Shown: one piece after another, positions 44,169-62,516 of the stretch
Position numbering within the stretch: the stretch's first letter is position 1
Layout of the letters: each line of letters opens with the position of its first letter
Assembly (NCBI RefSeq): GCF_003932955.1
Contig: NZ_QOVY01000010.1
Span: 1 to 64,000 of the forward strand
From: Chryseobacterium sp. SC28
GTDB taxonomy: Bacteria; Bacteroidota; Bacteroidia; Flavobacteriales; Weeksellaceae
Reading direction: 5' to 3'
DNA: 64,000 bases
Notes under the pieces: generated by a model
What the model saw: the letters and a program-made list of their open reading frames with translations, nothing else
The model's database searches: none
What the model was told of the DNA's origin: nothing
Translations under genes and position numbers: made by a program

Positions 44169-44175
44169 TTTTTTA

Positions 44176-45393: not shown

Positions 45394-45411
45394 TTTATTA
45401 ATCTTTTTTAA

Positions 45412-45765: not shown

Positions 45766-45840
45766 ATATGTATAAAAATATAAATTCATCCGATAGGATT
45801 TGCATCCTATCCTGTATTAATCCGTCACTTCGTGACTGAA
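45752..45840. repeat. Cluster of REP-like hairpins
   Basis: Three hairpins lie side by side: AGGACGTAAGTCCT, GATAGGATTTGCATCCTATC and GTCACTTCGTGAC. CACTTCGTG is the inverted form of CACGAAGTG in the 74-bp units. Such imperfect hairpins next to a Y1 transposase gene are its likely recognition ends. Confidence 0.65.
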
Positions 45841-45848
45841 TGACAGTT

Positions 45849-46301: not shown

Positions 46302-46330
46302 TTTATTTCAATTTTATTTTACGAAGCTGT

Positions 46331-46984: not shown

Positions 46985-46993
46985 TTCTAATTT

Positions 46994-47773: not shown

Positions 47774-47804
47774 TGGCTTGATGGATTTATTGGTGAAAAA
47801 ACAA

Positions 47805-48794
47805 TCAATTCTGGACCAAAAGTTGCAAACAATGTAAGGCTTTTCCACTTTCTAAACTTTCTTTTGCGGCAGCCATACTCGCTCCGTAATTGGTATATTT
47901 CCCTGTATTTTGCAGGGCTTTTGCTGCATTGGCAAGGACTACGGCGTTCTGCTCGCTGCTGCCGTTTCCTTGTAAAATATTTCTAAAAATATCGGCCGCA
48001 TCTTTTTTGGTATTTCCTCCGAAAATGCTTTCTGGAGCTACATTTCTAAAGCCTAATTCTTCGGCGGAGAAAATTTCTTCTCCATTTTTGTTGAAAATTT
48101 TGGTGTCTCCCGTCAATGAAATTTCGTCGTAACCGTCCAAAGCGTGAACCAACATAAAATCTTCGTTGTTTTTCTGCAAAAGATATTGATAAAGTCTTGC
48201 AATTTCTAAACTATAAACGCCAATCATCGAAAATTTGGGTTTGGCAGGATTGACGATGGGTCCCAGAAGATTAAAAAAAGTTTTCAAACCCAGACTTTTT
48301 CTCAGTGGTGCCACCGTTTTCAAAGCTGGATGAAAATAGGGCGCGTGTAGAAAACAAATGTTGGCTTTTTCTAAATCATTTTTCAAATCCGCCGCTTGGG
48401 TTTTGAATTGATAGCCCAATTCTTCCAAAACATTGGAGGCTCCCGAAATAGAAGACGCTCCGTAATTGCCTTGCTTGGCTACTTTTTGACCCGTTCCCGC
48501 CACGATGAAACTCGCCAAAGTAGAAATATTGAACGTGTTTTTGCCATCGCCACCCGTTCCTACAATGTCCACCAAATCGTGGGTGCCTAAATCTACTTTC
48601 ACTGCCAAGTCCATCAAGGCCTCGCGGAAACCCTGTAACTCTGGCAATGTAATGCTGCGCATCATAAAAACGGTGATAAAAGCCGAAACCTCCGTTTCGT
48701 TGAATTTATTTTGTGCAATTTCAATCATAATCGCCTTGGCTTCGGGCTTGGTAAGCGTCTGATGATTGAAAAGGTATTGCAGTATTTGTTTCAT
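47805..48794 (-). CDS. trpD: Anthranilate phosphoribosyltransferase
   Basis: Couples anthranilate to PRPP. The 329-residue enzyme has the PRPP-binding GTGGDGKNTFNISTLASF (about 80-97), KQGNYGASSISGASNVLEELG, HPALKTVAPLRKSLGLKTFFNLLGPIVNPA and the acidic metal site in YDEISL. Full length, not fused to trpG. Upstream lies a four-helix-bundle element in the trpG-trpD junction. Confidence 0.97.
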   Translation of the reverse strand: MKQILQYLFNHQTLTKPEAKAIMIEIAQNKFNETEVSAFITVFMMRSITLPELQGFREALMDLAVKVDLGTHDLVDIVGTGGDGKNTFNISTLASFIVAGTGQKVAKQGNYGASSISGASNVLEELGYQFKTQAADLKNDLEKANICFLHAPYFHPALKTVAPLRKSLGLKTFFNLLGPIVNPAKPKFSMIGVYSLEIARLYQYLLQKNNEDFMLVHALDGYDEISLTGDTKIFNKNGEEIFSAEELGFRNVAPESIFGGNTKKDAADIFRNILQGNGSSEQNAVVLANAAKALQNTGKYTNYGASMAAAKESLESGKALHCLQLLVQN

Positions 48795-48810
48795 AAAACA
48801 GTTTTAATTG

Positions 48811-49224
48811 TTAATTGTTAATGGTTAAGATTAATTTTGGAAGTTTTTAAAATGCTGGTAATCAATTTTATAATTTCCACAGCATCTTCATTTAAACTTG
48901 TAAATTCTTGTATGGAAAGATAATTAGTGGCGTGAAAAAAGTTCTAGCCAATAAATGGTTTCGTTGATTTCTTTCTGTGCGACTGATAATTTATGTATGA
49001 AATCTGCTTTGCTTTGGGCGTGCTCACTCTCTCTTATCATTGCTCCTACACTTGTTCCGCTGCGCAGTATTTGTTTGCTTAGAACAAATTCTTTTTTATC
49101 ATTGGTTAAATATTGATTGAGTTTTACAATGCGAACTGCAAAATCAAAGCTTTTTTGTTTTATGATATTATTTATCTTCATATTTATAAAAATTATTTAT
49201 CAATTATTAACCATTAACAATTAA
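48811..49224 (-). repeat. IVS-like element A: inverted heptad arms around a four-helix-bundle gene
   Basis: TTAATTGTTAATGGTTAA (48811-48828) and TTAACCATTAACAATTAA (49207-49224) are perfect 18-bp inverted repeats, both with 7-bp periodicity. The region between them (378 bp) is filled by the four-helix-bundle gene. In the trp mRNA the arms can pair and place that gene in a hairpin loop. Confidence 0.8.
48818..49181 (-). pseudogene. Four-helix-bundle (S23/Avd-like) protein, frameshifted
   Basis: The open frame from 49181 stops after 85 codons (...ETIYWLELFSRH). A T6 run at 48935-48940 read as T5 restores a normal C-terminus (HATNYLSIQEFTSLNEDAV, then EIIKLITSILKT) that ends at a stop codon in the left heptad arm (48818-48820). 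The gene is therefore one base out of frame, by mutation or sequencing error in a homopolymer. QILRSGTSVGAMIRESE is the family motif. It sits between trpG and trpD in operon orientation. The family forms small pentameric four-helix bundles related to the Avd protein of diversity-generating retroelements and to ORFs in 23S rRNA intervening sequences. Confidence 0.8.
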
Positions 49225-49294
49225 CCATTAACAATTAACCATTAACAATTAACCATTAACAATTAACCATTAACCATTAACCATTAACCATTAA
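49207..49294 (-). repeat. Heptad array at the 3' end of trpG
   Basis: About twelve 7-bp units (TTAACCA, TTAACAA and variants) in tandem. The array supplies the last codons and stop of trpG (ENFFNG then TAA at 49284-49286) and forms the right arm of element A. Confidence 0.9.
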
Positions 49295-49895
49295 AAAAGT
49301 TTTCCAAAATTTGTCGTCCATTGGGGGTTAAGATGCTTTCGGGATGGTACTGTACGGCGTGAACGTCATAAGTTTTGTGTTTCAGGCTCATAATCATTCC
49401 CGAACGATCTACCGATGTAATTTCTAATTCTTCTGGAAAATCTTCGGGATTGACTGCCCAAGAGTGATACCGCCCAACTTCTATGATTTTGGGTAAATTT
49501 TTAAAAATATGGTGTTCTTTGATTTGCTTGGATTCTGTGGCTACGCCGTGGTAGATCTCGGAAAGATTGATGAGGCTGCCGCCGAAGGCTTCGGCAATCG
49601 CCTGTTGGCCGAGACAAACTCCAAAAATAGATTTTGTAGGCGCATATTTTTTAATCACGTCCAAAAGGATTCCTGCTTCTTCCGGAATTCCAGGACCTGG
49701 GGAAAGGATGATTTTGTCATATTTTTCGATGTCTTCCAATGCAATCTGGTCGTTGCGAAAAACATCTACCTTTTCCCCGACAATTTGTTCGATGATTTGA
49801 ACCAAATTGTAAGTGAAACTGTCGTAATTGTCGAAAACTAAAATCTTAGTGGCTGGTTGACAGTTGCTGGTTGATGGTTTTAAAATATTTTTCAT
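49284..49895 (-). CDS. trpG: Anthranilate synthase glutaminase component
   Basis: Class I glutamine amidotransferase that feeds ammonia to TrpE. The body is standard: ILVFDNYDSFTYNLVQ, ILSPGPGIPEEAG, the nucleophile Cys in FGVCLGQQAIAEAFGG, and the His/Glu pair in VQYHPESI. The start is unusual. TrpG normally begins directly with M(K)ILVFDNYDSF, but here the ATG at 49895 adds MKNILKPSTSNCQPATK, encoded by 7-bp repeats that are the left arm of element B. A further in-frame ATG at 49928 overlaps the neighbouring gene and is less likely. Its stop codon lies in another heptad array. Confidence 0.94.
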   Translation of the reverse strand: MKNILKPSTSNCQPATKILVFDNYDSFTYNLVQIIEQIVGEKVDVFRNDQIALEDIEKYDKIILSPGPGIPEEAGILLDVIKKYAPTKSIFGVCLGQQAIAEAFGGSLINLSEIYHGVATESKQIKEHHIFKNLPKIIEVGRYHSWAVNPEDFPEELEITSVDRSGMIMSLKHKTYDVHAVQYHPESILTPNGRQILENFFNG

Positions 49896-50301
49896 TTTAT
49901 TTGTTTCTGTAGTAGTTAATAAATCCATTCAATAATTTCTTACAAATCATAATTTGATTAGCGATGGATAGCAATTGTTCTTCATCAATATAATTTTGAT
50001 CTCGCGAAATATAAAGTTGGGTTTCAAGTTCGTAAAGAGAGCCTCTTGCGATAAATAAAAAGTTTGCCGTATCTTTTGAGGTGCTTCTTCCGCAACCTTC
50101 TGCAATATTGGAAGGAATAGAAACCGCACATCTTCTGATTTGATTGACTAATCCAAAAGATTCCTCTTTAGGATAATTTTTTGATAAATCGTAAACAAGA
50201 TTGGCGAGTTTTCTTGCTTCTCTCCAAACATCAAGATTTATATATTCCATATTTTTAATTTTAATTTTTATCAATCAACCAACAACCATTAACCATCAAC
50301 C
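49869..50301 (-). repeat. IVS-like element B: inverted heptad arms around a four-helix-bundle gene
   Basis: GGTTGATGGTT (49869-49879, inside trpG) and AACCATCAACC (50291-50301, at the trpE stop) are perfect 11-bp inverted repeats. Both lie in wider 7-bp periodic arrays (TGGCTGG-TTGACAG-TTGCTGG-TTGATGG on the left; ACCAACA-ACCATTA-ACCATCA on the right). They bracket the four-helix-bundle gene at 49897-50250. Confidence 0.75.
49897..50250 (-). CDS. Four-helix-bundle (S23/Avd-like) protein
   Basis: A 117-residue protein from ATG 50250 (MEYINLDVWREARKLANLVY); an upstream ATG adds eight Lys/Ile-rich residues unlike the family. The core motif NQIRRCAVSIPSNIAEGCGRS (about 46-66, here given in part) is diagnostic for the four-helix-bundle family seen in 23S rRNA intervening sequences and next to diversity-generating retroelements. 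It is intact. It lies between trpE and trpG in operon orientation and ends 1 bp before the trpG start codon. Proteins of this type are basic and may bind RNA; their role is unproven. Confidence 0.85.
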   Translation of the reverse strand: MEYINLDVWREARKLANLVYDLSKNYPKEESFGLVNQIRRCAVSIPSNIAEGCGRSTSKDTANFLFIARGSLYELETQLYISRDQNYIDEEQLLSIANQIMICKKLLNGFINYYRNK

Positions 50302-51720
50302 TCCAATTTTCCCTGCTTTTAAAACGGCTTTTTTCAAAGCGCCGAGTTTGTTGTTTACTTCTTGCAATTCGCTTTCTGCGTGGGATTTTGCGGTGATTCC
50401 TGCACCGGCTTGGTAAAATAAAGAGTTGTTTTTGCTCAAGAAAGTTCTTATCATTATGGCTTGATTACAGCTTCCATCGAAGCCCACAAAACCGATGCAG
50501 CCGCCATAGTAGCTTCGGGAAGTTTTTTCGTATTCATCAATGAGCTGGAGGGCTCGATATTTGGGTGCGCCACTCAAAGTGCCTTGTGGAAACGTGGAGG
50601 CAATCATCTCGAAAGGATTCTGGTTTTCTTTGACATCCGCATCAACTTCGGAAACCATATGAATCACGTGCGAAAAAAAATGAATCTCTTTGAGTTTGGC
50701 AACTCTCGTATTTTTTCCGTGAATGCTGAGGTCGTTTCTCGCAAGGTCTACCAGCATCGTGTGTTCCGCATTTTCTTTGGGGTCTTTTTTAAGTTCTTCA
50801 GCAGATTCCAGATCTTTTTCGAGGTTTCCGCTCCGTTTAAAAGTTCCAGCGATGGGATGGATTATCGCTTTTCCGTTTTTGATAATCAATTGACTTTCTG
50901 GGCTGGATCCCATTAATCTGTAATCGCCATAATCAAAGAAAAATAGATAAGGCGAAGGATTGATGTTCCGCAAAGCCCGATAAACATTGAATTCGTCGCC
51001 TCGAAACTTTTGCTCAAATCTTCGGCTCAGCACCAATTGGAAAACGTCTCCACGGAAACAGTGTTTCTTGGCGAACTCGACAGAGTCCAAAAATTCTTCA
51101 TCTCTAAGGTTAGAAATTTCCTCGCCCATCCTCTCGAAAGGAAAAACAGGCGCATTTTTTTGGTTGATGAAGTTTTCGATGGACAAAAATTCAGATTTGA
51201 GACCCTCGATGTGGTTTTCTATCAAGTACATTTCGTCGTTGTGATGGTTGATGGCGATGACGTATTGGTACAGCCGGTAACGCAGCAGTGGGACTTTATT
51301 GTCCTCAGATTGTGCCTTAAATTTGATATTTTCGAAGAACGGAATGGCGTCATAGCTTGTATATCCGAAAAATCCTTGCGCACTCTTTCCTATTTCGTGG
51401 TTTGGAGTTTCGCACTCAAAGCAGGTTGAAAATTCCTGCAACACATCGGTCAGTTTTTCGTTTTCCAATTTTATTTTTTGTGGATTTTCGAGCGGAAATT
51501 TGAATTCTGCTTCCTCATAATTTCGGATCTCGATGCCGGCAATCGCATTGACAGCAATGAATGAAAAAGAGTTTTCCGAATTTTGATTTCCGGCATTTTC
51601 CAATAGGATGGTATCGCGGAAGTTGTCTCGCAACCGGAGATAGATACCGATTGGCGTGAAAAGGTCTGCCAGTTGAGCTTTGACCGTGGTTTTAACTTTT
51701 ATGGTTTTACAGAATTTCAT
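50296..51720 (-). CDS. trpE: Anthranilate synthase component I
   Basis: Makes anthranilate from chorismate and ammonia, the committed step. The ATG at 51720 (MKFCKTIKVKTTVKAQL) is chosen because the longer frame would run through the attenuator stem. The roughly 474-residue protein carries the N-terminal regulatory LLENAG (tryptophan feedback site), HPIAGTFKRSG, FPQGTLSGAPKYRALQLIDE, YYGGCIGFVG and GAGITAKSHAESE with the Mg-binding residues. Its final codons (GKIGG, TGA) lie in the right arm of element B. First structural gene of the operon. Confidence 0.96.
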   Translation of the reverse strand: MKFCKTIKVKTTVKAQLADLFTPIGIYLRLRDNFRDTILLENAGNQNSENSFSFIAVNAIAGIEIRNYEEAEFKFPLENPQKIKLENEKLTDVLQEFSTCFECETPNHEIGKSAQGFFGYTSYDAIPFFENIKFKAQSEDNKVPLLRYRLYQYVIAINHHNDEMYLIENHIEGLKSEFLSIENFINQKNAPVFPFERMGEEISNLRDEEFLDSVEFAKKHCFRGDVFQLVLSRRFEQKFRGDEFNVYRALRNINPSPYLFFFDYGDYRLMGSSPESQLIIKNGKAIIHPIAGTFKRSGNLEKDLESAEELKKDPKENAEHTMLVDLARNDLSIHGKNTRVAKLKEIHFFSHVIHMVSEVDADVKENQNPFEMIASTFPQGTLSGAPKYRALQLIDEYEKTSRSYYGGCIGFVGFDGSCNQAIMIRTFLSKNNSLFYQAGAGITAKSHAESELQEVNNKLGALKKAVLKAGKIGG

Positions 51721-51740
51721 CAGATTAATTTTAAAATTTA

Positions 51741-51840
51741 AATAAAAAAAGACTTCAACAAAAATTGTCAAAGTCTTATGATGATTGAGATATAGCAAGT
51801 TCAAAATTTAGAACACCGATAATCCTTTCAGACCCGACAA
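51741..51840 (-). terminator. Tryptophan operon attenuator
   Basis: On the minus strand AAGACTTTGACAA (51777-51765) pairs with TTGTTGAAGTCTT (51761-51749), 13 bp with two GU pairs, followed by T7, 20 bp before trpE. TTGTCGGGTCT within the leader coding region (51840-51830) can pair with the left arm as antiterminator using GU pairs and one bulge. Confidence 0.7.
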
Positions 51841-51885
51841 CGAGTAAGAAAGCCACCACCAGTTATTTGTGTTCATTGATTTCAT
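51808..51885 (-). CDS. trpL: Tryptophan operon leader peptide
   Basis: A 25-codon ORF reading MKSMNTNNWWWLSYS and ending GLKGLSVF, with three consecutive Trp codons at positions 9-11. An internal ATG at codon 4 could also serve as start. It ends 31 bp before the terminator stem and about 88 bp before trpE. Ribosome stalling at the Trp codons under tryptophan shortage would expose the antiterminator region just downstream. The gene is too short for automatic gene callers but fits the classic attenuation layout. Confidence 0.82.
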   Translation of the reverse strand: MKSMNTNNWWWLSYSLSGLKGLSVF

Positions 51886-51939
51886 CGGTTGATTAAATTC
51901 TTTTTAAAATGACAGATAGAACTGTCGTTTTGATGGTAG

Positions 51940-51970
51940 CAAATATAAAGATGATTTTGATAAATGCAAA
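51940..51970 (-). promoter_or_regulatory. Promoter of the tryptophan operon
   Basis: On the minus strand TTTG (51970-51967), 19 nt, then TATATTTG (51947-51940): an exact match to the Bacteroidota promoter consensus. Transcription would start about 50 nt before trpL. Confidence 0.7.
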
Positions 51971-52012
51971 TGTTTTTTGAGTTTTTTATCAGGATTTAGT
52001 TGATTTTCCGAG

Positions 52013-52480
52013 TTACAAGAAGGGTTTCATCTCGTCTTCGATGTTGCGGCGCAGATTCATCAGTTTGATGGCATATTCCTGCATTTGAACTTCATTTTCT
52101 GTGCTTGGGATCCATTTTGGAACTTGCACAGACTTTCCATTTTCATCAACTGCTACAAAAACAATGATGCAGTGCGTTTTCTTTTCGTAGGTCTTTTCAT
52201 TTATTTTTCGGGAATAGACGTCGATGGCGATGTGCATACTCGTGTTTCCAGTGTAGATCACGTGCGATTCCAGCTTCACAATTTCACCAATTTTGATGGG
52301 TTGATAAAAACGGATGCCTCCTACATACACGGTAACGCAATAACTTGAAGACCAGGTACTTGCACACGCGTAGCCCACTTGGTCTATCCATTTCATAACG
52401 CTTCCGCCGTGGACATTGCCGCCGAAATTGACATCTGTAGGCTCCGAAATAAATTGGAAAGTAATTGGTTTATTGTCCAT
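52013..52480 (-). CDS. Acyl-CoA thioesterase (YciA/BACH-type hotdog)
   Basis: A 155-residue hotdog thioesterase hydrolysing acyl-CoA. The active-site helix reads NFGGNVHGGSVMKWIDQVGYACAS, with the conserved Asn and Asp of the YciA/cytosolic acyl-CoA hydrolase group. GGIRFYQPIKIGEIVKLESHVIYTGNTSM and the AVDENGKSVQVPKW segment fit the same family. No signal peptide. It lies alone downstream of the trp promoter on the same strand and is not part of the trp operon, since transcription of trp starts after it. Confidence 0.9.
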   Translation of the reverse strand: MDNKPITFQFISEPTDVNFGGNVHGGSVMKWIDQVGYACASTWSSSYCVTVYVGGIRFYQPIKIGEIVKLESHVIYTGNTSMHIAIDVYSRKINEKTYEKKTHCIIVFVAVDENGKSVQVPKWIPSTENEVQMQEYAIKLMNLRRNIEDEMKPFL

Positions 52481-52829
52481 TTTTTAAAATTTTATCAAAT
52501 GTAAGGTTTTCAAATGTTTTTTGGGTATTCTGCAGCATTTCGATTTCGCGATGTCCAATTTCAAATCCCGTAGATTCTTACTAATCCCGATAATAAATTT
52601 TATAAAAATCTAATCGATAATTGAGATTTTAGATTAAAACTCTGTAACAATTTCCGGTTCATTGCCGCTCCGAATTTCAAATGTTATAAATGCCAATGTG
52701 GATGCTGTAAAGAAAAAAACATTGCTTTGAGCCTTAAAAATCAATGAAATGAGACAGTTACCGTGGTTGCAATAGAGGAAAAGACGACGACATACGCTCC
52801 ATGTGAAAAAAAATCCGTATTTATGCAAA
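52481..52829. other. Intergenic region with nothing recognisable
   Basis: 349 bp, AT-rich, between two diverging genes. Neither strand has a credible ORF, a clear hairpin or a repeat shared with the rest of the window. It presumably contains the promoters of both flanking genes, but no good TTTG-N19-TAnnTTTG match was found. Confidence 0.5.
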
Positions 52830-53192
52830 ATGAAAAAAGTATTTTATCTTAAAACTTGCGATACTTGTAGAAAAATATTGGGTCAATATGATACAAGAGA
52901 TTGGGAAATGCGAGAAATCAAAATCAACCCCATCACAGAGCAGGAAGTAGAAGATATGTACAAATTAGCGGGTTCTTACGAAGCGCTTTTCAACAAAAAA
53001 TCCAATCAGATCAAATTACAGGAACTAGATCCAAAAGCCCTTCAGGAAAAGGATTACAAAGAATTGCTGTTGGATCATTACACCTATTTGAAGCGCCCGG
53101 TCTTCCTCACCGAAGATGAAATTTTCATAGGCAGCGACAAAATCAATCTCGGCAAATTAAAAGAATATTTCTTATCCAAGAAAGAAAATTAA
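52830..53192 (+). CDS. ArsC/Spx-family thioredoxin-fold protein
   Basis: About 120 aa from ATG 52830; a GTG 27 bp upstream would add nine residues. The N-terminal YLKTCDTCRKILG holds a CxxC pair, the catalytic Cys in the ArsC/Spx family. LLDHYTYLKRPVFLTEDEIFIG contains the conserved RP motif with the arginine that binds oxyanions. It may be an arsenate reductase or one of the YffB/Spx-like relatives without arsenate activity; no ars genes are nearby. A weak terminator lies near 53217-53248. Confidence 0.82.
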   Translation: MKKVFYLKTCDTCRKILGQYDTRDWEMREIKINPITEQEVEDMYKLAGSYEALFNKKSNQIKLQELDPKALQEKDYKELLLDHYTYLKRPVFLTEDEIFIGSDKINLGKLKEYFLSKKEN

Positions 53193-53449
53193 GACATCAA
53201 ATTTGTACAATAAATCATCCGGAGCGCGCATCGTTTCGGATTTTTTTTAGTTTAAAACCATTTTGATTTACGCAATAACTACAAAAGCCAATGTTTTTTG
53301 CGTTTTAAGAAAAGTTAAAAAAAAAACAAGATGTCCTACAAAAGTGAGTTTTTCGTAATCCCAAAGATCTCTTTTTTTAGGATTTACTTTTGTGACTTTT
53401 GTGGTTTAACGATTTTTCCAACACAGAAAATTAATTGTAATTTCACACA

Positions 53450-54660
53450 ATGAAACGTTCCGGAACTGCAGATCTCCCGCTACATTATGGCCACGTTCCG
53501 GCTTGGCTTTATGAGCGTATGTCGAAACTCGGGCTCGCCATCGTGGAAGTGATTCTGACCGATTATGGCAAGATGAAGTTCTGAGAAGACTGGCAGACCC
53601 GTTTTGGTTCCAAAGTTTTGGTGCGGTGATGGGGATGGATTGGCATTCCTCCGGCATCACGACTTCTGTGATGGGTGCTTTGAAACGTGCCATCAATCCG
53701 AATTCTAAATCGCTCGGAATCTACATTGCCGGCGGAAAAGGAAAATTTTCTAAAGAAACGCCCAGCGAGCTTCTGAAAATTGCAGATTCCACGGGACTTG
53801 ACGGCACGGAACTCGTCCGATGCAGTAAACTTTCTGCGAAAGTTGATAACACGGCTATCCAAGATGGTTATCAGCTTTATCTTCATAATTTTATTTTGTC
53901 CGACGAAGGAAATTGGGCGGTTGTTCAGCAAGGGATGCACGATTCCGATGGCACGGCGAGGCGTTATCATTGGCTTTCTGAGAATGTGAGTTCTTTTGTG
54001 AATGAGCCTCATACCGGGATTTCAGGTGTGAATCGTGGAAATATTCTCAATCTGACTTCTTCCCAAGCAGAACAAAGCAGAAACGGCATTGTTGACATCA
54101 CAAAAACCGATTCCGACAAATGGATGCAGGATTTCCAAAGGTTGATTTTGCCGGCGCATCACGAGGTTTTGGCCAACGATGTGGATATGAAAAAACTGGG
54201 GAATATTCTTTGGTTGGCGAGAGAAAATCAGCCCGAGAATTTTGAGGAATTGCTGATGCTGAAAGGCGTTGGTCCCAGAACGATGCAGTCTTTGGCGCTT
54301 GTAAGTGAAGTGATTCACGGTGCGCCCTCCCGATTTGCAGACCCTGCGCGATATTCTTTTGCACACGGCGGGAAAGACGGACATCCGTTTCCTGTGCCTA
54401 CAAAAACCTACGACGAAACCATTGCTATCCTAAGAACCGGCATCGAGAAATCTAAGTTGGGAAATATGGATAAGAGCCAAGCCATCAAAAAACTTCACGA
54501 GATCGCGTTGAGAACAGAAGCGGACTTTACGCCGGATTTTAATCTTGAAAAAGTGATAGAAGAGGAGCGACAAAACTCTTGGCAATACGGCGGAAAAACA
54601 GTTTTTGGTGATGCGAAGCCGCTGAAACCAAATGGTGGGATACAGTTGAGTTTGTTTTGA
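53450..54660 (+). pseudogene. DUF763-family protein, frameshifted near the 5' end
   Basis: Starts at ATG 53450 with MKRSGTADLPLHYGHVPAWL and would run about 403 aa. At 53570-53571 GGCAAG should read GGCAAAG: adding one A turns DYGKMKF-stop into DYGKDEVLRRLADPFWFQSFGAV, which joins the main open frame (next ATG 53626). So one A is missing from a short A-run, either a real mutation or a sequencing error. The body contains HxH-like SSGITTSVMGALKRAI and a helix-hairpin-helix-type LLMLKGVGPRTMQSLALVSE. DUF763 is an uncharacterised family of bacteria and archaea; nucleic-acid binding is suggested by the HhH motif only. Confidence 0.82.
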
Positions 54661-54685
54661 TTAATTAGTTTGAAATTGAATAATT

Positions 54686-55675
54686 ATGGAAAAATATTTA
54701 CTTAAGATTGATAAATTGATAATGACTGGTTTTATTGACCAAACTGAGATTTTTACTGATTTTGAATTCTCAGATTATTTCTCTGATTTTGAGTATATAT
54801 ACAATGAACTTTTTAAAATTTTTGAGTTCGAAGCTAATAAATATTCTTTAATAAATTTTTATCTAATTTATAAAAATGCCTTTAATAATAATGCTTATGC
54901 TGGATTTAATAAAAACACATATATAATAAAATTCACATCGGGATTAGTTGTCAATGTAGTCAATAGGACATTAAAAAATGATGAATTAATAGAATACAAT
55001 AAAAGACACGAAAAATTTTCAAAATATCTTGATATTCCAGTTGAAAGATTAATTTATCAATTCTGCTTTTTATTTACATTTTATCACGAGTTTGCACATC
55101 TATTACAATTCACAAAAAGTGATAAATTTTACGAATTAGATGAAGAATCAGTTTTAAATACATATGAAAAAGAAAAACATTATCAAGAGATTGACGCTGA
55201 TACATTTAGTTCGATTCAATTAGCAAGACATATTAGTCAATATTGTAGACAGCATTTTAGTGACTCTATGTTGGAGATTTCTGTGGAATATTTTACTCAA
55301 ATAATTTGTTCAAACTTGTACTATTATATTTCAAATTTTGAACATAGTGAGAGCGAAATTTATTACTATGAAAGAAAACACCCACATCCTTTTATCAGAA
55401 TAGTTAATATATTAAATACTATAAATAGTTATCTTAAAATCGATATTAATCTAGTCGATAAAAATGTAAAACCAAAAAACCAATTATTACCAATATTTTC
55501 AGAAATAGAAGCCTTAAAATTGAATCAAGTTTATTCAAATTACAATTTTATAAATTATAAATTTGAATTACCAGCAAACATTGAAAAAATTGTAGAATAT
55601 TTGAATAATATTAAATCATATAAATCTCAAAATTTTAATTCTGCGTTGGAAATTTATAACAAAAATATTATTTAG
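54686..55675 (+). CDS. Putative zincin-like protein, unknown family
   Basis: A 329-residue protein that I do not recognise. It has HEFAH at 134-138 inside FLFTFYHEFAHLLQF and, 30 residues on, YQEIDADTFS (Glu168, Asp170, Asp172). This HExxH plus downstream acidic/AD pattern is that of zinc metallopeptidases of the IrrE/M48-like sort, so a zinc site is likely. No signal peptide or membrane helix. The gene is clearly more AT-rich than its neighbours (Ile, Asn, Tyr, Lys-rich; many AAT/TTA codons), which suggests recent acquisition. It has its own terminator. A cytoplasmic protease role, perhaps in stress or phage response, is speculative. Confidence 0.7.
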   Translation: MEKYLLKIDKLIMTGFIDQTEIFTDFEFSDYFSDFEYIYNELFKIFEFEANKYSLINFYLIYKNAFNNNAYAGFNKNTYIIKFTSGLVVNVVNRTLKNDELIEYNKRHEKFSKYLDIPVERLIYQFCFLFTFYHEFAHLLQFTKSDKFYELDEESVLNTYEKEKHYQEIDADTFSSIQLARHISQYCRQHFSDSMLEISVEYFTQIICSNLYYYISNFEHSESEIYYYERKHPHPFIRIVNILNTINSYLKIDINLVDKNVKPKNQLLPIFSEIEALKLNQVYSNYNFINYKFELPANIEKIVEYLNNIKSYKSQNFNSALEIYNKNII

Positions 55676-55681
55676 CATCAA

Positions 55682-55716
55682 AAAACGCCTCAGAAATTTC
55701 TTAGGCGTTTTCGGTT
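55682..55716 (+). terminator. Terminator between the zincin-like gene and fadE
   Basis: AAAACGCCT (55682-55690) pairs with AGGCGTTTT (near 55703-55711) with an inner AGAAATTTCT palindrome, T-rich on one side and A-rich on the other, so it can serve both converging genes. Confidence 0.75.
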
Positions 55717-55732
55717 ATTTTAAATTGATAAT

Positions 55733-57520
55733 TTAGTAAGACCCTTTCCCAATAAAATGAGCGGCAACTTTTTCTGTCAAGGCAATCGGATTTGGCGTGT
55801 TGACGTACTTTGTAAAACGTCTAAGTCCTGCCAGCATCATTCTTTGTTCGTCGCCTTCGGAGAAAGATACGATGCCTTCTTTGGCGCTGGTTGAGACGAT
55901 TTCCACCGCTTTATAAAGATTCAGTCTTGCCATCGCAGCTTCCACAGAGTCGGTATCGAAATGTTTCTCAGCTCTCAGGATGGCCGATTCTGCCATATAA
56001 ATTTGGTTGAGGATTTCGGAAGCATTCAGAAGCAGATGTTGTTGCTGCTCGATTTCCGTCATATATTTTTGAAGGGCAGATCCGGAAACCATCAGGAATA
56101 CTTTTTTCAGATTTTTGATGACTTCTTTTTCCTCAGACATATATTCTGAATAATCCGGAAGGTCGAAAGAAGGTATTCCCATCAATTCTTTAGCTACATT
56201 TTTTGCAGGCGTCAAAAGGTCGATTTTGCCTTGCATTGCCCGTTTGATGAGCATTCCCACGGCAAGAAGTCGGTTGATTTCGTTAGTTCCCTCGTAGATT
56301 CTGGATATTCTGGAATCTCTCCAGGCAGCCTCCATCGGCGTATCTTCGGAGAAGCCCATTCCGCCAAAGATTTGGATGCCCTCGTCTGCGGTGTGCTGCG
56401 CCAAATCGGAAACGTAAACTTTCAGGATAGAACATTCTACCGCAAATTCCTCCACACCTTTCAGCTCTGCTTGCTCGTGCTGCATTCCTCCTGAAACGAA
56501 TTCCTCAATTTTGTTTTCGATATCTTTTGCGCCTCGGTAGGTGCCTGCTTCGCTCACGAAAATGCCGGTTGCCATCTCCGCCAGCTTCTTGCGAATGGCT
56601 CCGAACGTGTTGATAGAAACGCCAAATTGCTTCCTCTCTGCCGCATAATTCAAAGAATGGTTAAAGATTCTTCTTTGTGCATCAAGACAAGCGGCTGCCA
56701 GCTTGATTCGGCCAACATTCAGTGCATTCAGCGCAATTTTGAAACCGTTATTTCTTTCGCCTAAAAGATTCTCTACCGGAACTTTCAGATCATTGAAGAA
56801 AACCTGACGGGTAGAAGATGCGCGAATGCCCAATTTGTGTTCTTCCTCGCCGAAGGTCAAACTATCCGGATTTTCCAGCTCCGAACGGTTGATGACAAAA
56901 CCGGTGATGTTTTTGTCGTCGTCTATCTTGGCAAAAAAAGTGAAAGTGTCTGCAAAACCGGCGTTGGAGATCCACATTTTCTGTCCGTTGATGATGTAAT
57001 GCTTGCCATCGTCCGACAATCTGGCTTTTGTTTTTCCGCTGTTGGCATCAGATCCTGCTTCGGGCTCTGTCAAACAATAAGAACCGAATTTGTTTCCTAC
57101 AGCCAAGTCCGGGAGGTATTTGTTTTTCAAGTATTCGGTACCGTAAAGCAAGATGGGCAAAGTACCGATTCCGGTATGGGCGCCGTAAGCAGTTGCTAAA
57201 GAACCCGTTGCACCGGACAGATAATCGCAAGCCAGCGTGGTAGAGACGAAGCTCATTCCCAGTCCGCCATATGCTTCCGGAACGGCGAGACCTAAGAATC
57301 CCATTTCTCCGATTTTCCGCATCACTTCTTCCGTGTAAGCATAGTCTTTTTTCTCAAATCTTTCCTTGTTGGGAACGACTTCTTTATCGATGAATTCTTT
57401 TGCAGAATCCCGTAGCATTTTTTGTTCTTCAGAAAGTTCTTCGATGCTGAAGATGTCTTGGGCAGTGATATCTTTTACGAGAAATTCGCCGCCGTTCAGT
57501 GTTTTGGTTTCGGTACTCAT
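55733..57520 (-). CDS. fadE: Acyl-CoA dehydrogenase
   Basis: FAD-dependent first step of beta-oxidation. The 595-residue protein is the long type with a C-terminal extension. Signature segments are GLGMSFVSTTLACDYLSGATGS, YCLTEPEAGSDANSGKT (FAD-binding, about 152-168), MWISNAGFADTFTFFAKI and the catalytic-loop RIYEGTNEINRLLAVGML (about 414-431). Last gene of the marR-fadN-fadA-fadE operon; a four-helix-bundle element separates it from fadA. Symbol used by function, not by orthology to E. coli FadE. Confidence 0.92.
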   Translation of the reverse strand: MSTETKTLNGGEFLVKDITAQDIFSIEELSEEQKMLRDSAKEFIDKEVVPNKERFEKKDYAYTEEVMRKIGEMGFLGLAVPEAYGGLGMSFVSTTLACDYLSGATGSLATAYGAHTGIGTLPILLYGTEYLKNKYLPDLAVGNKFGSYCLTEPEAGSDANSGKTKARLSDDGKHYIINGQKMWISNAGFADTFTFFAKIDDDKNITGFVINRSELENPDSLTFGEEEHKLGIRASSTRQVFFNDLKVPVENLLGERNNGFKIALNALNVGRIKLAAACLDAQRRIFNHSLNYAAERKQFGVSINTFGAIRKKLAEMATGIFVSEAGTYRGAKDIENKIEEFVSGGMQHEQAELKGVEEFAVECSILKVYVSDLAQHTADEGIQIFGGMGFSEDTPMEAAWRDSRISRIYEGTNEINRLLAVGMLIKRAMQGKIDLLTPAKNVAKELMGIPSFDLPDYSEYMSEEKEVIKNLKKVFLMVSGSALQKYMTEIEQQQHLLLNASEILNQIYMAESAILRAEKHFDTDSVEAAMARLNLYKAVEIVSTSAKEGIVSFSEGDEQRMMLAGLRRFTKYVNTPNPIALTEKVAAHFIGKGSY

Positions 57521-57541
57521 TTATAATATTTTTTTTGATTG

Positions 57542-57951
57542 AAGAATAAAGAGAAAAGATTAAAGACTTACCAATGCAATGTTTTTTGGAAGCCTGAAAT
57601 CATTCTCTGTAATTCGGTGATTTTATTTTCTATTAATTCAAATTTCGATTGTTCGATATAATCTCTTCTTGAAGAAATTATTATCTGCGTTTGTAATTCA
57701 TAAAGAGAGCCCAAACTGATTTCTAAAAATCTATTAAAGTCCTTTTGTGAAGTTCTGCTTGAACCTTCTGCAATATTGGAAGCAACCGAAATTGTACATC
57801 TTCTTATTTGAGATTTCAAACCGAATTCTTCATTTTTAGGAAAACTTTCTGTAATTGCATAAATTTCATCTGCTAATTCGAGGGATAATTTCCAAACATT
57901 CAGATTCTTAAAGTTATGTTTCATTAATAAAAGTCTTTTCTCTTTATTCTT
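57542..57951 (-). repeat. IVS-like element C: inverted heptad arms around a four-helix-bundle gene
   Basis: AAGAATAAAGAGAAAAGA (57542-57559) and its exact complement (57934-57951) form an 18-bp perfect inverted repeat. The left side continues with 7-bp periodicity (AAGAATA-AAGAGAA-AAGATTA-AAGACTT). The four-helix-bundle gene at 57568-57924 fills the 374-bp loop. It spans the whole fadA-fadE junction. Confidence 0.82.
57568..57924 (-). CDS. Four-helix-bundle (S23/Avd-like) protein
   Basis: A 118-residue intact member of the family: MKHNFKNLNVWKLSLELADE, the diagnostic SQIRRCTISVASNIAEGSSR (about 43-62), then FLEISLGSLYELQTQIIIS. It lies between fadA and fadE in operon orientation, 39 bp after fadA and 47 bp before fadE, enclosed by 18-bp inverted repeats. 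It has no link to fatty-acid oxidation by family. Probably the protein of a mobile or formerly mobile intervening element. Confidence 0.88.
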   Translation of the reverse strand: MKHNFKNLNVWKLSLELADEIYAITESFPKNEEFGLKSQIRRCTISVASNIAEGSSRTSQKDFNRFLEISLGSLYELQTQIIISSRRDYIEQSKFELIENKITELQRMISGFQKTLHW

Positions 57952-57963
57952 TTTTCTCCTTGT

Positions 57964-59139
57964 CTATAGCAACTCAAACACACTCGCCGCTCCCTGACCT
58001 GTTCCCACGCACATTGTCACGACGCCGTATTTGCTGTTTCTGCGTTTCATTTCGTCGAGAAGTTGGACGGTTAATTTTGTGCCGGTGCAGCCAAGTGGAT
58101 GCCCAAGTGCGATGGCGCCGCCGTTCACGTTCACGATGTCCGGATTCAATCCTAATTCTCGTACGATAGCTACAGATTGAGAAGCAAAAGCTTCATTCAA
58201 TTCAAACAAATCGATGTCGGATTGTTTGAGCCCAGCTTGTTCCAACGCTTTTGGAATGGCGTACATCGGTCCGATTCCCATAATTCTTGGCGGAACGCCA
58301 ACGGTGGAATAGGAGACCAGCCGCGCTACCGGTGTCAGGTTTAATTCTTTTACCATTTTTTCGGACATTATCATCGTAAAAGCAGCGCCGTCGGAAGTTT
58401 GAGAAGAATTTCCTGCCGTCACAGAGCCATTGGCTGCAAACACAGGCCGCAATTTCGCCAAAGCTTCCAAGGAAGTATCCGCTCTTGGGCCTTCATCTTG
58501 CTCAAACGCATATTCCTTGGTCTGCACTTTTTCCTTGTCGTCCAGGAAATTATATTTTACATCAATTGGAACAATCTGACGCTCAAATTTTCCTTCTTTA
58601 ATGGCTTTAATGGCTTTTTGATGAGAGTTGAAGGAGAACTGATCTTGCTCCTCTCGGCTGACTTTGAATTCGTTGGCTACGGCTTCTGCCGTCAGTCCCA
58701 TTCCCCAATAATAATCGGGATGTTTCTTTGCCAAATCGGTGTCAGGAATTGGTTTGTAGCCGCCCATTGGGATGTACGACATACTTTCTGCACCACCAGC
58801 GATGATGCATTCTGCCATTCCGGCTTTGATTTTCGCTGATGCAATCGCAATCGATTCCGATCCTGATGCGCAATATCTGTTTACCGTCACGCCCGGCACT
58901 TTGTCGGTGTCCAATCCCATTAATGAAATCAGCCTTGCGACGTTGAGTCCTTGTTCTGCCTCCGGCATCGCGCAACCGACAATCAAATCGTCGATGCGGG
59001 CGGGGTCTAGGTTTGGAACATCTTTCATCAGACGTTCTATCACAGTTGCCGCCATATCATCGGGGCGGGTAAAACGCAAAGAACCTTTCGGCGCTTTGCC
59101 CACTGCTGTTCTGTATCCTGTTACTATGTATGCTTCCAT
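57964..59139 (-). CDS. fadA: Acetyl-CoA C-acyltransferase (3-ketoacyl-CoA thiolase)
   Basis: Cleaves 3-ketoacyl-CoA with CoA to acetyl-CoA, the last step of beta-oxidation. The 391-residue thiolase has the nucleophile Cys90 in VNRYCASGSESIAIA, NGGAIALGHPLGCTG with the catalytic His (about 350), and the second Cys in CVGTGQGAASVFELL (about 380). Full length. It lies between two four-helix-bundle elements in the fad operon. Probably works in a complex with the multifunctional FadN-like protein upstream. Confidence 0.95.
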   Translation of the reverse strand: MEAYIVTGYRTAVGKAPKGSLRFTRPDDMAATVIERLMKDVPNLDPARIDDLIVGCAMPEAEQGLNVARLISLMGLDTDKVPGVTVNRYCASGSESIAIASAKIKAGMAECIIAGGAESMSYIPMGGYKPIPDTDLAKKHPDYYWGMGLTAEAVANEFKVSREEQDQFSFNSHQKAIKAIKEGKFERQIVPIDVKYNFLDDKEKVQTKEYAFEQDEGPRADTSLEALAKLRPVFAANGSVTAGNSSQTSDGAAFTMIMSEKMVKELNLTPVARLVSYSTVGVPPRIMGIGPMYAIPKALEQAGLKQSDIDLFELNEAFASQSVAIVRELGLNPDIVNVNGGAIALGHPLGCTGTKLTVQLLDEMKRRNSKYGVVTMCVGTGQGAASVFELL

Positions 59140-59159
59140 TTTTATTTTGTTGTATTTAG

Positions 59160-59580
59160 GTATTAATGTAAAATGTATTTACGATTTTAAAATGTTTGAG
59201 TATTAAAATTCTGCTTCAATTTTGCTAACATATTTTGTATGTGTTTGATTTCGGAGTAAATGATATTAAAATCATCATTTTTAAAGAATTGCAAATCTTT
59301 AGCAATTAATATTTGGGTTTCAAATTCGAATGATGAGCCTAATGCAATATTCAGAAAATGAGAAAATTGAGCATTTGTATCACGACCAGCACCTTCAGCA
59401 AAATTAGACGGAATTGAAATTACACTTCTTCTTGCCTGAGAAGTCAATCCGAACAATTCTTCTTGTGGAAAATTATTAGAAGACAAGTAAAAGGTTTTAC
59501 AAAGTTTCATCGATTTTGTCCAAACTTCTAAATCTCTAAAATTGTGCATCGTTAATACATTAATACTTTTTACATTTTAC
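59160..59580 (-). repeat. IVS-like element D: inverted arms around a four-helix-bundle gene
   Basis: GTATTAATGTA (59160-59170) and TACATTAATAC (59556-59566) are 11-bp perfect inverted repeats. A second pair, TGTAAAATGTA (59168-59178) and TACATTTTAC (59571-59580), adds to the complementarity. The motifs again show 7-nt spacing. The four-helix-bundle gene fills the loop. Confidence 0.65.
59187..59549 (-). CDS. Four-helix-bundle (S23/Avd-like) protein
   Basis: A 120-residue intact member: MHNFRDLEVWTKSMKLCKTF, the diagnostic SQARRSVISIPSNFAEGAGR (about 43-62), then FLNIALGSSFEFETQILIAK. It sits between the fadN-like gene and fadA, 38 bp after the first and 47 bp before the second, in operon orientation. 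It differs strongly from the copy in the next junction, so the two are not a recent duplication. Confidence 0.87.
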   Translation of the reverse strand: MHNFRDLEVWTKSMKLCKTFYLSSNNFPQEELFGLTSQARRSVISIPSNFAEGAGRDTNAQFSHFLNIALGSSFEFETQILIAKDLQFFKNDDFNIIYSEIKHIQNMLAKLKQNFNTQTF

Positions 59581-59587
59581 AAAACAT

Positions 59588-61987
59588 CTAGTTTCTCACC
59601 GGCTTACCTGTCTTCAGCATTCCGGCGATTCTTTCCAAAGTTTTTTTCTCGCCGCAAAGGGAGAGAAAGGCTTCTCTTTCCAAATCCAAAAGATATTGTT
59701 CTGAAACTTCCGTTGGTTCGGAAAGATTTCCGCCCGTCATCACGTAGCCGATTTTGTTTGCGATGAGTCGGTCGTGTTCTGAGGCATAACCGCCGGCAAC
59801 CATTTGGTCGGTTCCAACGTAGAACATTCCCATTGCTTCGCTGCCGAGCACTTTTACCTTCTCCGGAACTGGCGGTGTATATCCCAATTCGTCCAACACA
59901 ATTGCTTGACGTTTCGCTTCGGCTATCTGACGATCTCTATTGACAACAATGATGTCTTTGTCGGTCAAAATCCCCATTTGCCGGGCTTCGTGCGCAGAAG
60001 TCGCTACTTTTGCGGTTGCAATGTTCATAAAGTAATTTCTCAAATGATTGGTTTTGACATCGTCTGGAAGGGTTCCTTTCAAAGCCCTTAGGGCAAACTC
60101 TTTGGTACCGCCGCCGCCCGGAATGAGACCAACGCCAACTTCTACCAAACCGATGTACGTCTCCGCTGCTGCTACGATTTTGTCTGAATGCATTGAGAAT
60201 TCGCAGCCGCCGCCCAGCGTCATACCGAACGGTGCTGCTATTACCGGAATGGATGAATATCTCAGTTTCATAGAAGTTGATTGGAACAGAGCAACGGCCA
60301 TATTGAGCTCATACCAATCCTGCTCAGCGGCCATCATCATAATCATCGCAAGATTGGCGCCCACTGAGAAATTCTCGGCTTGATTGCCAATGACCAAACC
60401 GCGATAATCCTTCTCTGCGATCTCTATAGATTTGCTAATGCCTTCCAAAACACCGCCGCCCAACGTGTTCATTTTTGAACGGAATTCGAAGTTCAAAATG
60501 CCGTCACCAAGGTCAATCAATGCAGATTCAGAATTGGACCAAACGGTCTTTTCTTTTCTGATATAATCTAGAATTATAAAGGTATCTTTCCCGGGAATAG
60601 GTTCGTATGCTTTTGAATTTTGGTTATAGAATAGTTGGTTTCCGTTTTCCAATTTGTAGAAAGAGTCATTGCCGTTTGCCAGCATCTCTTTCACCCAATC
60701 GGCCACTTTGTAACCTTCGCTTTCCACCAAGTCGATTCCTTTCTGCACGCCTAGAAAATCCCAGTTTTCGAAAGGTCCGTATTTCCACGCATAGCCGGTT
60801 TTCATCGCATCATCGATGGAGTAGAATACGTCGGTGATTTCCGGAACGCGTTGCGAAACGTAGGCAAAAAGCGAAGCATAATGTTTTCTAATCAGTTCGC
60901 CTGCTTTGGTTTCATCTTTCAGCAAAATCGGCAAACGGTTTTTCAGACTTCCGGCTTCCTTAGCTGCTTGCACGATAGGAAGTTTCGGTTGTTTCGTAGG
61001 TTCGTAGCCAAGTGTCTGATAATTAAGCACAAAACGATTGACGTTTCCGCCGGCATCTTTTTCTTTATAATAGAATCCTTTTTTACTTTTATCTCCAAAG
61101 AATTTATTTTCGATCAGATAATTCAGAGTTTTAGAATCCTTAAGCGCCTGCACCATTTCGTCATCTTTTAGATTGGCTTGCAAGCCTTTTGTAACACTGA
61201 CGGCGGTGTCGAGACCAACCAAATCTCCCAATTTGAAAGTTCCGGTTTTTGGGCGGTTCAGCAAATCGCCCGTCAGAGCATCGGCTTCCTCAATGGTCAA
61301 GCCGATTTCCTCCGTGAGTTCCATAATTTTGGCCATAGAGTAAACGCCGATTCGGTTTCCGATGAAGCCCGGCGTGTCTTTGCAAAGCACCGTGGTTTTC
61401 CCAAGGAATTTTTCCGCATACGACATCAAGAAATCAACGACCGATTTGTCGGTTTTCGGTCCCGGAATCACTTCGAATAATTTCAAATATCGTGGCGGAT
61501 TGAAGAAATGCGTTCCGCAGAAATACTTCTGAAAATCTTCTGACCTTCCTTCCGACATCAGGTGAATCGGAATTCCAGAGGTGTTGGAGGTGATCAAAGT
61601 GCCGGGTTTGCGAAGCTTGTCCACTTTCTCGAACATCGATTGCTTGATGTCCAATCTTTCCACGATAACCTCGATTACCCAATCCGAATTTTTGATTTTT
61701 TCCAAATCATCTTCGAAGTTTCCAACCGTAATTCGGGAAGCGAAGGATTTGTCGTAGATCGGCGAGGGGTTGCTTTTCAGGGCGTTATCAAGATGCCCTT
61801 GCGCCACGCTGTTTCTGAACTTTTTACTTTCTGGATTTGCGCCCGCTGCTTTGTCTTTGTCCGACAATTCTTTGGGAGGCATATCCAACATCAAAACCTG
61901 AATCCCGTTGCCAGCTAAGTGGCAGGCAATTCCGGAGCCCATCACGCCGGAGCCGAGAACCGTTACGTGTTTTATTTTTCTGTTCAT
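59588..61987 (-). CDS. fadN: 3-hydroxyacyl-CoA dehydrogenase / enoyl-CoA hydratase
   Basis: A 799-residue bifunctional beta-oxidation enzyme. The N-terminal NAD domain starts HVTVLGSGVMGSGIACHLAG. The HAD domain shows STNTSGIPI-like TSNTSGIPIHLM, CGTHFFNPPRYLKL and CKDTPGFIGNRIG. The C-terminal crotonase domain (about 490-700) contains NFSVGANLAMIMM, LGGGCEFSMHSDKIVA and GLVEVGVGLIPGGGGTKE. Domain order (dehydrogenase first) matches FadN of Bacillus rather than FadB of E. coli. It follows marR by 13 bp. Confidence 0.94.
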   Translation of the reverse strand: MNRKIKHVTVLGSGVMGSGIACHLAGNGIQVLMLDMPPKELSDKDKAAGANPESKKFRNSVAQGHLDNALKSNPSPIYDKSFASRITVGNFEDDLEKIKNSDWVIEVIVERLDIKQSMFEKVDKLRKPGTLITSNTSGIPIHLMSEGRSEDFQKYFCGTHFFNPPRYLKLFEVIPGPKTDKSVVDFLMSYAEKFLGKTTVLCKDTPGFIGNRIGVYSMAKIMELTEEIGLTIEEADALTGDLLNRPKTGTFKLGDLVGLDTAVSVTKGLQANLKDDEMVQALKDSKTLNYLIENKFFGDKSKKGFYYKEKDAGGNVNRFVLNYQTLGYEPTKQPKLPIVQAAKEAGSLKNRLPILLKDETKAGELIRKHYASLFAYVSQRVPEITDVFYSIDDAMKTGYAWKYGPFENWDFLGVQKGIDLVESEGYKVADWVKEMLANGNDSFYKLENGNQLFYNQNSKAYEPIPGKDTFIILDYIRKEKTVWSNSESALIDLGDGILNFEFRSKMNTLGGGVLEGISKSIEIAEKDYRGLVIGNQAENFSVGANLAMIMMMAAEQDWYELNMAVALFQSTSMKLRYSSIPVIAAPFGMTLGGGCEFSMHSDKIVAAAETYIGLVEVGVGLIPGGGGTKEFALRALKGTLPDDVKTNHLRNYFMNIATAKVATSAHEARQMGILTDKDIIVVNRDRQIAEAKRQAIVLDELGYTPPVPEKVKVLGSEAMGMFYVGTDQMVAGGYASEHDRLIANKIGYVMTGGNLSEPTEVSEQYLLDLEREAFLSLCGEKKTLERIAGMLKTGKPVRN

Positions 61988-62000
61988 TTATTGAGATTTA

Positions 62001-62465: not shown

Positions 62466-62480
62466 ATTGAGTGCTTTTTA

Positions 62481-62516
62481 CAAATATAAAAAAAATACTA
62501 TGCATGCATAGTATTT
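62481..62516 (-). promoter_or_regulatory. Promoter and MarR operator of the fad operon
   Basis: On the minus strand TATATTTG (62488-62481) is a perfect -7 element. Immediately upstream lies a perfect 24-bp palindrome (62493-62516) with half-site AAATACTATGCA, occupying the spacer and the -33 region. A protein bound there would block polymerase. Confidence 0.72.

Follow-up and report, generated by a model that had tools for sequence, protein, structure and literature searches.

The stretch of DNA studied here, referred to below as the window, comprises 64,000 nucleotides (nt) of Chryseobacterium sp. SC28 (contig NZ_QOVY01000010.1, positions 1 to 64,000). In two of its operons small genes encoding four-helix-bundle proteins (fhb genes) stand between the ordinary cistrons. 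The gene order, all on the minus strand, is trpE, fhb, trpG, fhb, trpD in one operon and fadB, fhb, fadA, fhb, fadE in the other; the trp and fad names are presumptive, as they were assigned from the protein sequences and not by profile match. Each fhb gene is bracketed by two inverted arrays of 7-nt units (heptads), which we call arms, and the gene with its arms is called a cassette. The new observation of this work is that genes of the S23 family, so far familiar chiefly from the interior of rRNA genes, usually lie within such a heptad-armed cassette between genes of ordinary operons.

Four S23-family genes in operon junctions

All four window proteins match PF05635 (23S_rRNA_IVP) with E values from 4.2e-23 to 1.5e-39 and 82-135 bits against a curated cut-off of 33.8. 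They also match TIGR02436 (four helix bundle protein) and are thus members of the S23 family. The source genome (2.74 Mb) has five PF05635 matches in all, four of them in the window. An initial annotation of this DNA had described four small genes of this kind lying in the junctions of the trp and fad operons in operon orientation. Placement, direction and family hold for all four, whereas intactness does not: the gene at 48818-49181 is frameshifted. Its open frame covers only 48924-49181 (85 aa), with a 1-nt difference from a 97.4% identical copy in a related genome. The features, with E values for PF05635, are as follows.

48818..49181, minus strand: element 1, frameshifted fhb gene (PF05635) in the trpG-trpD junction; E 4.2e-23, internal stop
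49206..49303, minus strand: element 1, upstream arm; 7-nt unit repeated 12.7 times at 49206-49294, best arm alignment at 49261-49303
48795..48836, minus strand: element 1, downstream arm; 7-nt repeats at 48804-48828
49897..50250, minus strand: element 2, fhb gene in the trpE-trpG junction; E 1.1e-38
50274..50301, minus strand: element 2, upstream arm with GGTTGAT-type heptads, from repeat search and arm alignment
49848..49879, minus strand: element 2, downstream arm, within the trpG-like open frame as an N-terminal extension
57568..57924, minus strand: element 3, fhb gene in the fadA-fadE junction; E 1.5e-39, dN/dS 0.066 over 9 species
57934..57951, minus strand: element 3, upstream arm AAGAATAAAGAGAAAAGA (sense strand), a perfect 18-nt match to the downstream arm, identical in 9 species
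57542..57559, minus strand: element 3, downstream arm, from arm alignment
59187..59549, minus strand: element 4, fhb gene in the fadB-fadA junction; E 3.5e-36, dN/dS 0.198 over 6 species
59562..59576, minus strand: element 4, upstream arm AATGTAAAAAGTATT (sense strand), from arm alignment, identical in 6 species
59165..59179, minus strand: element 4, downstream arm, from arm alignment, overlapped by the GTATTAATGTA repeat of the initial annotation

Complementary arms flank most S23-family genes

Arms were scored by local alignment of the 130 nt upstream of a gene with the reverse complement of the 130 nt downstream (match +2, mismatch -3, gap -6), and a locus is called arm-positive if the score is at least 24. 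The window elements 1-4 score 53, 25, 36, and 25. Because the cut-off is 24, elements 2 and 4 are barely above it when taken singly. Among 48 other open reading frames (ORFs) of at least 100 aa in the window that do not adjoin fhb genes, the median score is 17.5 and one reaches 24.

The test was extended to five sets of loci. The genus set contains 110 of 118 matches from 23 genomes, all 23 of which have PF05635 genes; eight fragments were omitted, namely G005:C36 and G004:C45, which exceed the cut-off, and six that fall short of it. One mis-mapped copy at a contig edge, G006:C15, is among the 110 in the arm test and was excluded from clustering and later analyses. The order set consists of 28 new loci and the phylum set of 24 of 25 new loci. 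For the named-genome set, mostly titled Bacteroidota with few other phyla, 80 of 587 confirmed loci were taken, and 77 were tested after three with short flanks had been set aside. Plasmid searches gave 24 and 46 records, of which 25 regions were used: 23 cyanobacterial loci and two others, L301 and L302.

In the genus set 91 of 110 copies are arm-positive, compared with 4.0% of 520 mismatched pairs of arms from copies of the same genome and 7.5% of 600 pairs from any two copies. The corresponding numbers are 17/28 for the order loci (mismatched 3.6%), 16/24 for the phylum loci (1.6%), 56/77 for the named genomes (4.9% of 800) and 16/23 for the cyanobacterial plasmids (10.1% of 506; annotated neighbor genes 3/42). 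Altogether 196 of 262 loci are positive, against 1.6-10.1% of mismatched pairs depending on the set and 10 of 184 other genes at the same loci; the last number rules out arm likeness as a general property of genes. The loci are not independent, since the genus set clusters by neighborhood. Grouped by their neighbors, its copies give 33 clusters; in 28 the median score reaches 24, and two clusters each combine two sites. The complementary arms reported for the four window genes, all of which reach 24, are thus borne out and recur widely in the family, and the survey of fhb genes for flanking complementary 7-nt repeats that the initial annotation had called for came out in favor of its claim.

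Period, motif and polarity of the arms

The period of seven nucleotides, likewise noted at the outset, is confirmed by the self-match of the arms at lag 7. It is 0.50 in the genus set (0.29-0.35 at other lags up to 13, except 0.42 at lag 8), 0.55 in the named genomes (0.26-0.32 at other lags 3-12) and 0.57 in cyanobacteria (0.29-0.37 elsewhere, 0.42 at lag 8). Some arm families are built of 8-nt units.

Folded into seven columns, 121 distinct upstream arms give the motif A-G-W-T-N-N-N, with G in 74% of units in the second column, a flanking A in 69% and W in 86%. Its information is 1.55 bits compared with 1.29-1.36 in ten column-shuffled sets; the arms used for the motif had been preselected for periodicity: 270 of 360 arms, including the 121, had a self-match of 0.45 or more at lag 7. 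When arms are read inward, upstream arms with more G than C outnumber those with more C than G by 114:1 in the genus, order and phylum sets, 48:4 in the named genomes and 16:0 in cyanobacteria. Whole upstream flanks are likewise richer in G than in C (3193:1595).

The remainder of the heptad unit varies between cassettes and matches between the two arms of one cassette. The comparison of within-element with mismatched pairs bears out the earlier remark that arms differ between elements yet agree within each. The overlap of arm 5-mers averages 0.58 for pairs of proteins above ~70% identity (25 pairs) and is ~0.1 below 50%. Coevolution of protein and arms over all pairs was considered and rejected: the rank correlation is -0.03, and 158 of 200 permutations are at least as high.

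An S23 gene with heptad arms inside 23S rRNA

A region of an Azospirillum lipoferum 4B plasmid, L301, contains an S23 ORF (1420-1910) inside a 23S rRNA gene (RF02541, 2537 bits). The ORF is unlisted in the plasmid gene table and forms an insert after about position 1218 of the RF02541 model, which we take to be the helix-45 region. Its arms are the inverted heptads TCAGAGGACGGATGACAGAGGACGGAGGACAG and a near-complement, with a score of 47 (150-nt flanks) and the same G polarity as in the junction cassettes. Hence this one rRNA case agrees with the junction copies in the family of its gene and in its arms, which consist of 7-nt units and have their G side upstream. Further rRNA-embedded copies were sought in L302, which has an arm score of 19, and in 20 named loci, and no rRNA match was found there.

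Intervening sequences (IVS) of rRNA have complementary ends that are cut by RNase III (PMC4990558). The IVS in helix 45 of Coxiella burnetii, described in the same source, and L301 likewise have an S23-family gene in the loop of complementary arms. The window elements differ in their host, which is a junction in a protein-coding operon; excision by RNase III has been published for rRNA IVS. An Rfam search of positions 43000-62500 of the window gave no match, and the elements there lie between protein genes, not inside an rRNA gene. The idea that they are counterparts of rRNA IVS thus holds as regards the S23 ORF, the complementary arms and, by the single case of L301, the heptads; it does not hold as regards location inside rRNA. 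Since heptad arms surround the S23 gene of L301, rRNA IVS are likely, judging from the sequence of this one case, a habitat of the same cassette. According to PMC4990558, the function of S23 proteins is not known, and it is unclear how rRNA IVS arose.

Placement and neighbors

Both neighbors are co-directional with the fhb gene in 103/110 genus, 38/52 order and phylum and 69/77 named loci and, according to the incomplete PLSDB gene tables, in 17/23 cyanobacterial loci. Both are opposite to it in 2, 5, 0, and 4 loci, respectively. Thirty neighbor proteins were scanned, and they have no common theme. They include a GroEL-family chaperonin, FtsZ with YqeY, a Mur ligase with a family-4 glycosyltransferase, an NADH dehydrogenase subunit, a SufB/D protein, the small chain of carbamoyl-phosphate synthase, a MoxR-type ATPase with DUF58, and pairs of a response regulator and a histidine kinase.

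On cyanobacterial plasmids fhb genes also occur in cas loci. L296 has one between cas6 and cas4 with an arm score of 50 (150-nt flanks), L298 has one between the Cmr2 and Cmr3 genes (score 29), and L288 has one without arms, again between cas6 and cas4 (score 10). Eighteen genes of the IVP family have been noted in cas loci (PMC3936711). The cassette nature of these genes accounts for their presence inside unrelated operons such as these, and therefore fhb genes in cas loci should not be read as members of the pathway.

Gain, inheritance and movement at junctions

The initial annotation had suggested a search for empty sites in relatives, and such sites exist. At trpE-trpG nine of the 23 genus genomes are bare, with an overlap of the ATGA type, six have an fhb gene, six have other inserts and two could not be placed. 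At trpG-trpD an fhb gene is present in G000 only; four genomes are bare (1-10 nt), ten have gene-less inserts and eight have longer unassigned inserts. The fadB-fadA junction holds an fhb gene in 11 genomes, is bare in four (29-30 nt) and has other inserts in eight, and 19 of the 23 genomes have an fhb gene at fadA-fadE. A loss so exact that it would recreate an ATGA overlap is improbable; therefore we read the pattern of bare and occupied junctions as the result of gains rather than losses. The fhb copies at trpE-trpG belong to two unrelated clades, and different elements hold the same junction in different species.

The 97.4% identity between the trpE-trpG cassette of G014 and the trpG-trpD cassette of G000 extends over 470 nt and stops on both sides at the outer ends of the heptad arrays. 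Either transposition or recombination between arrays could have displaced this cassette. The arms at fadA-fadE are of three types, two of which, A and B, belong to one protein clade (SH-aLRT 99) and have unrelated arms; consequently, either both arms changed together or a related cassette replaced an older one. On a protein tree (quick method, 100 of 109 rows) 32 site labels need 34 changes with a minimum of 31, so most copies have been inherited in place. Like DNA transposons and miniature inverted-repeat transposable elements, the cassettes have inverted terminal repeats and are present or absent at a given site. AATT is present at both ends of the trpE-trpG insert of G006 and could be a target-site duplication or, equally well, arm sequence; the other junctions are not clean. 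Regarding the possible mobility of the elements, which had been raised from the window alone, gain at precise sites and the displacement of a cassette as a unit agree with it, whereas the rarity of movement on the tree weakens it.

The gene-less inserts at trpG-trpD are 63-88 nt long and consist of inverted heptad-like halves with scores 18-39, 2/10 of which are at least 24. Compared with fhb arms, their arms give best scores of 28-53 in a comparison made without a control. Gene-less heptad hairpins as an abundant miniature element were rejected: 275 intergenic gaps (504 kb) contain five periodic hairpins, some of them within fhb cassettes. Other short elements fill the same junctions as well, namely an inverted element GTCATTC...GAATGAC at trpE-trpG in two genomes (L111, L113) and REP-like AGCTCCGTAGGAGC repeats at fadB-fadA in seven genomes.

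Selection and RNA pairing

The ratio of nonsynonymous to synonymous substitution rates (dN/dS) was estimated for the copies at fad junctions. In five ortholog groups it is 0.066, 0.083, 0.092, 0.198, and 0.088 (9, 5, 5, 6, and 4 species, respectively; the value for group C rests on 35 shared codons). The fhb copies at fad junctions are under purifying selection. In group A the nine species do not differ at all in their arm cores, as against 72 of 118 identical third codon positions.

In predicted RNA ensembles more than half of an arm is paired with the other arm in 69 of 91 genus, 28 of 33 order and phylum, and 46 of 56 named arm-positive elements, counts that are expected from complementarity alone and have no shuffled control. 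Selection on an RNA stem should favor G-U mismatches, an expectation for which we have no positive control. G-U-compatible mismatches relate to A-C mismatches as 116:121 in the genus, order and phylum sets, 32:52 in the named genomes and 13:14 in cyanobacteria, i.e., there is no preference for G-U. This makes it more likely that each arm is recognized by itself, possibly in DNA, than that a stem is under selection.

Interpretation

We consider it reasonably probable that the elements are cassettes of the IVS class: an S23-family gene between inverted heptad arrays, with arms read by a ring-shaped protein and a stem that can be processed. Such a cassette comprises a single gene with an array on either side, the two arrays being inverted relative to each other and built of 7-nt units (8-nt in some families), mostly with one AGW per unit when read inward. 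It would be gained where a break in the transcript is harmless, between co-directional cistrons and in 23S rRNA loops, then mostly be inherited in place and sometimes be moved or swapped as an arm-bounded unit. The closest solved structures to the family are 2gsc and 2rld, and a member of the family is described as a ring-shaped homopentamer of four-helix bundles (PMC4990558). As each seven-base unit has one fixed AGW, a ring facing such a repeat would plausibly make a single contact with each unit. We propose that the pentameric ring protein recognizes the heptad arms of its own cassette in this way. The paired arms would form a stem around the gene and be processed as the stems of rRNA IVS are, after which the host cistrons or rRNA pieces would work on as separate molecules; by analogy, we regard IVS-like processing of the junction cassettes, which the initial annotation had suggested for their hairpins, as likely.

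Several observations weigh against this interpretation. There is no excess of G-U, so selection on RNA pairing is not visible. The shares of co-directional neighbors stand without a baseline share for ordinary genes, 66 of the 262 loci fail the arm test, and the link to rRNA IVS depends on the single case of L301. The site labels are nearly static on the protein tree, i.e., movement is rare, and the cassette has no domain known to move DNA. Finally, arm sequence tracks protein identity only above ~70%, and therefore recognition, if real, either targets the shared frame or evolves fast.

Some of the same data would fit a mobile element of the foldback type that acts at the DNA level, in which the fhb protein, or an enzyme acting in trans, would read the arms as terminal inverted repeats at both DNA ends, with the RNA hairpin as a side effect and the gene-less heptad inserts as miniature derivatives. 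Arms that read alike inward from both ends with strong G polarity, mismatches without a G-U bias, a displaced cassette whose likeness stops at the arms and the 63-88-nt inserts with inverted heptad halves at trpG-trpD in 10/23 genomes would all follow from it. We nevertheless regard it as somewhat unlikely: the cassettes lack recombinase and transposase domains, their ends give no clear target duplication, movement is rare, and 2/10 gene-less inserts reach 24 (scores 18-39). The bias toward the sense orientation (103/110 genus, 69/77 named) is also unexpected for free insertion into DNA without selection. Alternatively, the cassette may be a regulatory module serving the host: its protein would bind to the arms within the transcript of the operon and so tune the expression of the neighboring cistrons or its own; the ring-shaped protein TRAP, which binds spaced triplets, is a parallel. 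The dN/dS of 0.07-0.20 and the conserved arms at fad junctions in 4-9 species speak for such a role, as do neighbors such as the groEL, FtsZ, Mur ligase, NADH dehydrogenase, SufB/D-type and carbamoyl-phosphate synthase genes. This, too, seems unlikely to us, as many relatives have the same junctions without an fhb gene, one junction is occupied by different elements across species, and the 30 scanned neighbor proteins have no common theme.

It is very improbable that the arms are byproducts without a role, i.e., heptad slippage tracts matched by template-switch repair across a hairpin. Heptad tracts do occur alone (at 10031-10079 and within the trpF-like gene), and gene-less inverted heptad inserts exist, but arms flank the fhb family far more than they flank neighbors, in two phyla and one rRNA; the 9 species of group A have the same arm cores, and the G polarity is strong.

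Relation to other repeats and mobile systems

Repeats of seven nucleotides have been described elsewhere: GGGAATC in Xanthomonas, GGGGA(C/T)T in Anabaena and Nostoc, and further heptanucleotides in Calothrix, cited in the same source (PMC4692102), as well as TAACTGA in Beggiatoaceae (PMC4679880). They are over-represented in many bacterial genomes, and in passages of these two papers no explanation is given. Like the arms, they consist of 7-nt units and are mostly intergenic, and the arms of cyanobacterial fhb genes are G-rich heptads too. Inverted heptad pairs number 70 and 75 in two Xanthomonas genomes (PMC4692102). The term S23 is absent from the main texts of both papers, and in titles and abstracts we found no published link between S23 or four-helix-bundle genes and heptad repeats; the older IVS and repeat literature may hold more.

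Tentatively, we extend the cassette interpretation to these repeats. The S23 IVS of rRNA, the junction fhb genes and many heptanucleotide repeats (cyanobacterial short tandemly repeated repetitive sequences, the Xanthomonas GGGAATC pairs, the Bacteroidota ACCATTA-type arrays) may possibly be one cassette class and its relics, in which the pentamer would read AGW every 7 nt to maintain, process or move the cassette in break-tolerant transcripts. If this is true, rRNA IVS are merely the best-known habitat of the class. The cassette may then join two old puzzles, that of S23 genes and rRNA IVS and that of heptanucleotide repeats, and give both a testable mechanism. This unification is opposed by the small number of inverted pairs in Anabaena and the absence of the heptad repeats from its plasmids, as stated in passages of PMC4692102, and by a single inverted set among 170 repeat sets in Beggiatoaceae (PMC4679880). 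In the passages concerned, the authors of these studies generally report no link to mobile elements.

Three observations in the window concern tandem repeats. Direct heptad arrays of the TGGTTGA type at 46430-46460 and 46592-46619 lie in the trpF-like coding sequence and are translated as NHQPSTI-like peptides. A one-sided array (ATCAATT four times, then ATCCATC) at 10031-10079 stands directly upstream of a threonine synthase-like gene, without an fhb gene. At 8146-8862 a 162-bp unit occurs in 3.8 copies (94% matches) that extend across the beginning of a homoserine kinase-like gene, either as a duplication or as an assembly artifact.

Avd proteins of diversity-generating retroelements and S23 proteins have a related four-helix-bundle fold. 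A relation to Avd had been noted in the initial annotation; two of the four window proteins match the corresponding models below the cut-offs (best score 34.5 bits against 80 for NF033474 and 37.4 against 40 for bAvd, PF22296), so the relation is distant. Unlike the fhb cassettes, none of the four bAvd-family loci tested that are not also PF05635 matches has heptad arms (one of the four is a fragment; presence of a reverse transcriptase unchecked). A reverse transcriptase as a partner of the cassettes was rejected, as RVT_1 is detected at E 1e-6 in 8/23 genus genomes and is lacking in 15/23, while PF05635 genes are present in 23/23. Three window proteins tried against the PADLOC profiles of anti-phage defense gave no match at E 0.01, and a search for phage carriage with one window protein gave no match at E 1e-3.

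REP/RAYT and IS200-type elements resemble the fhb cassettes as hairpin-forming inserts in junctions of the same operons; they differ in having their own Y1 transposase gene and palindromic repeats instead of heptad arms. A gene for an IS200/REP-type Y1 transposase (PF01797) is located at 45405-46301 between the trpB- and trpF-like genes. Beside it a 74-bp repeat, present in 4.8 copies, includes the palindrome GCCACGAAGTGGC. The operon thus contains hairpin elements of two kinds.

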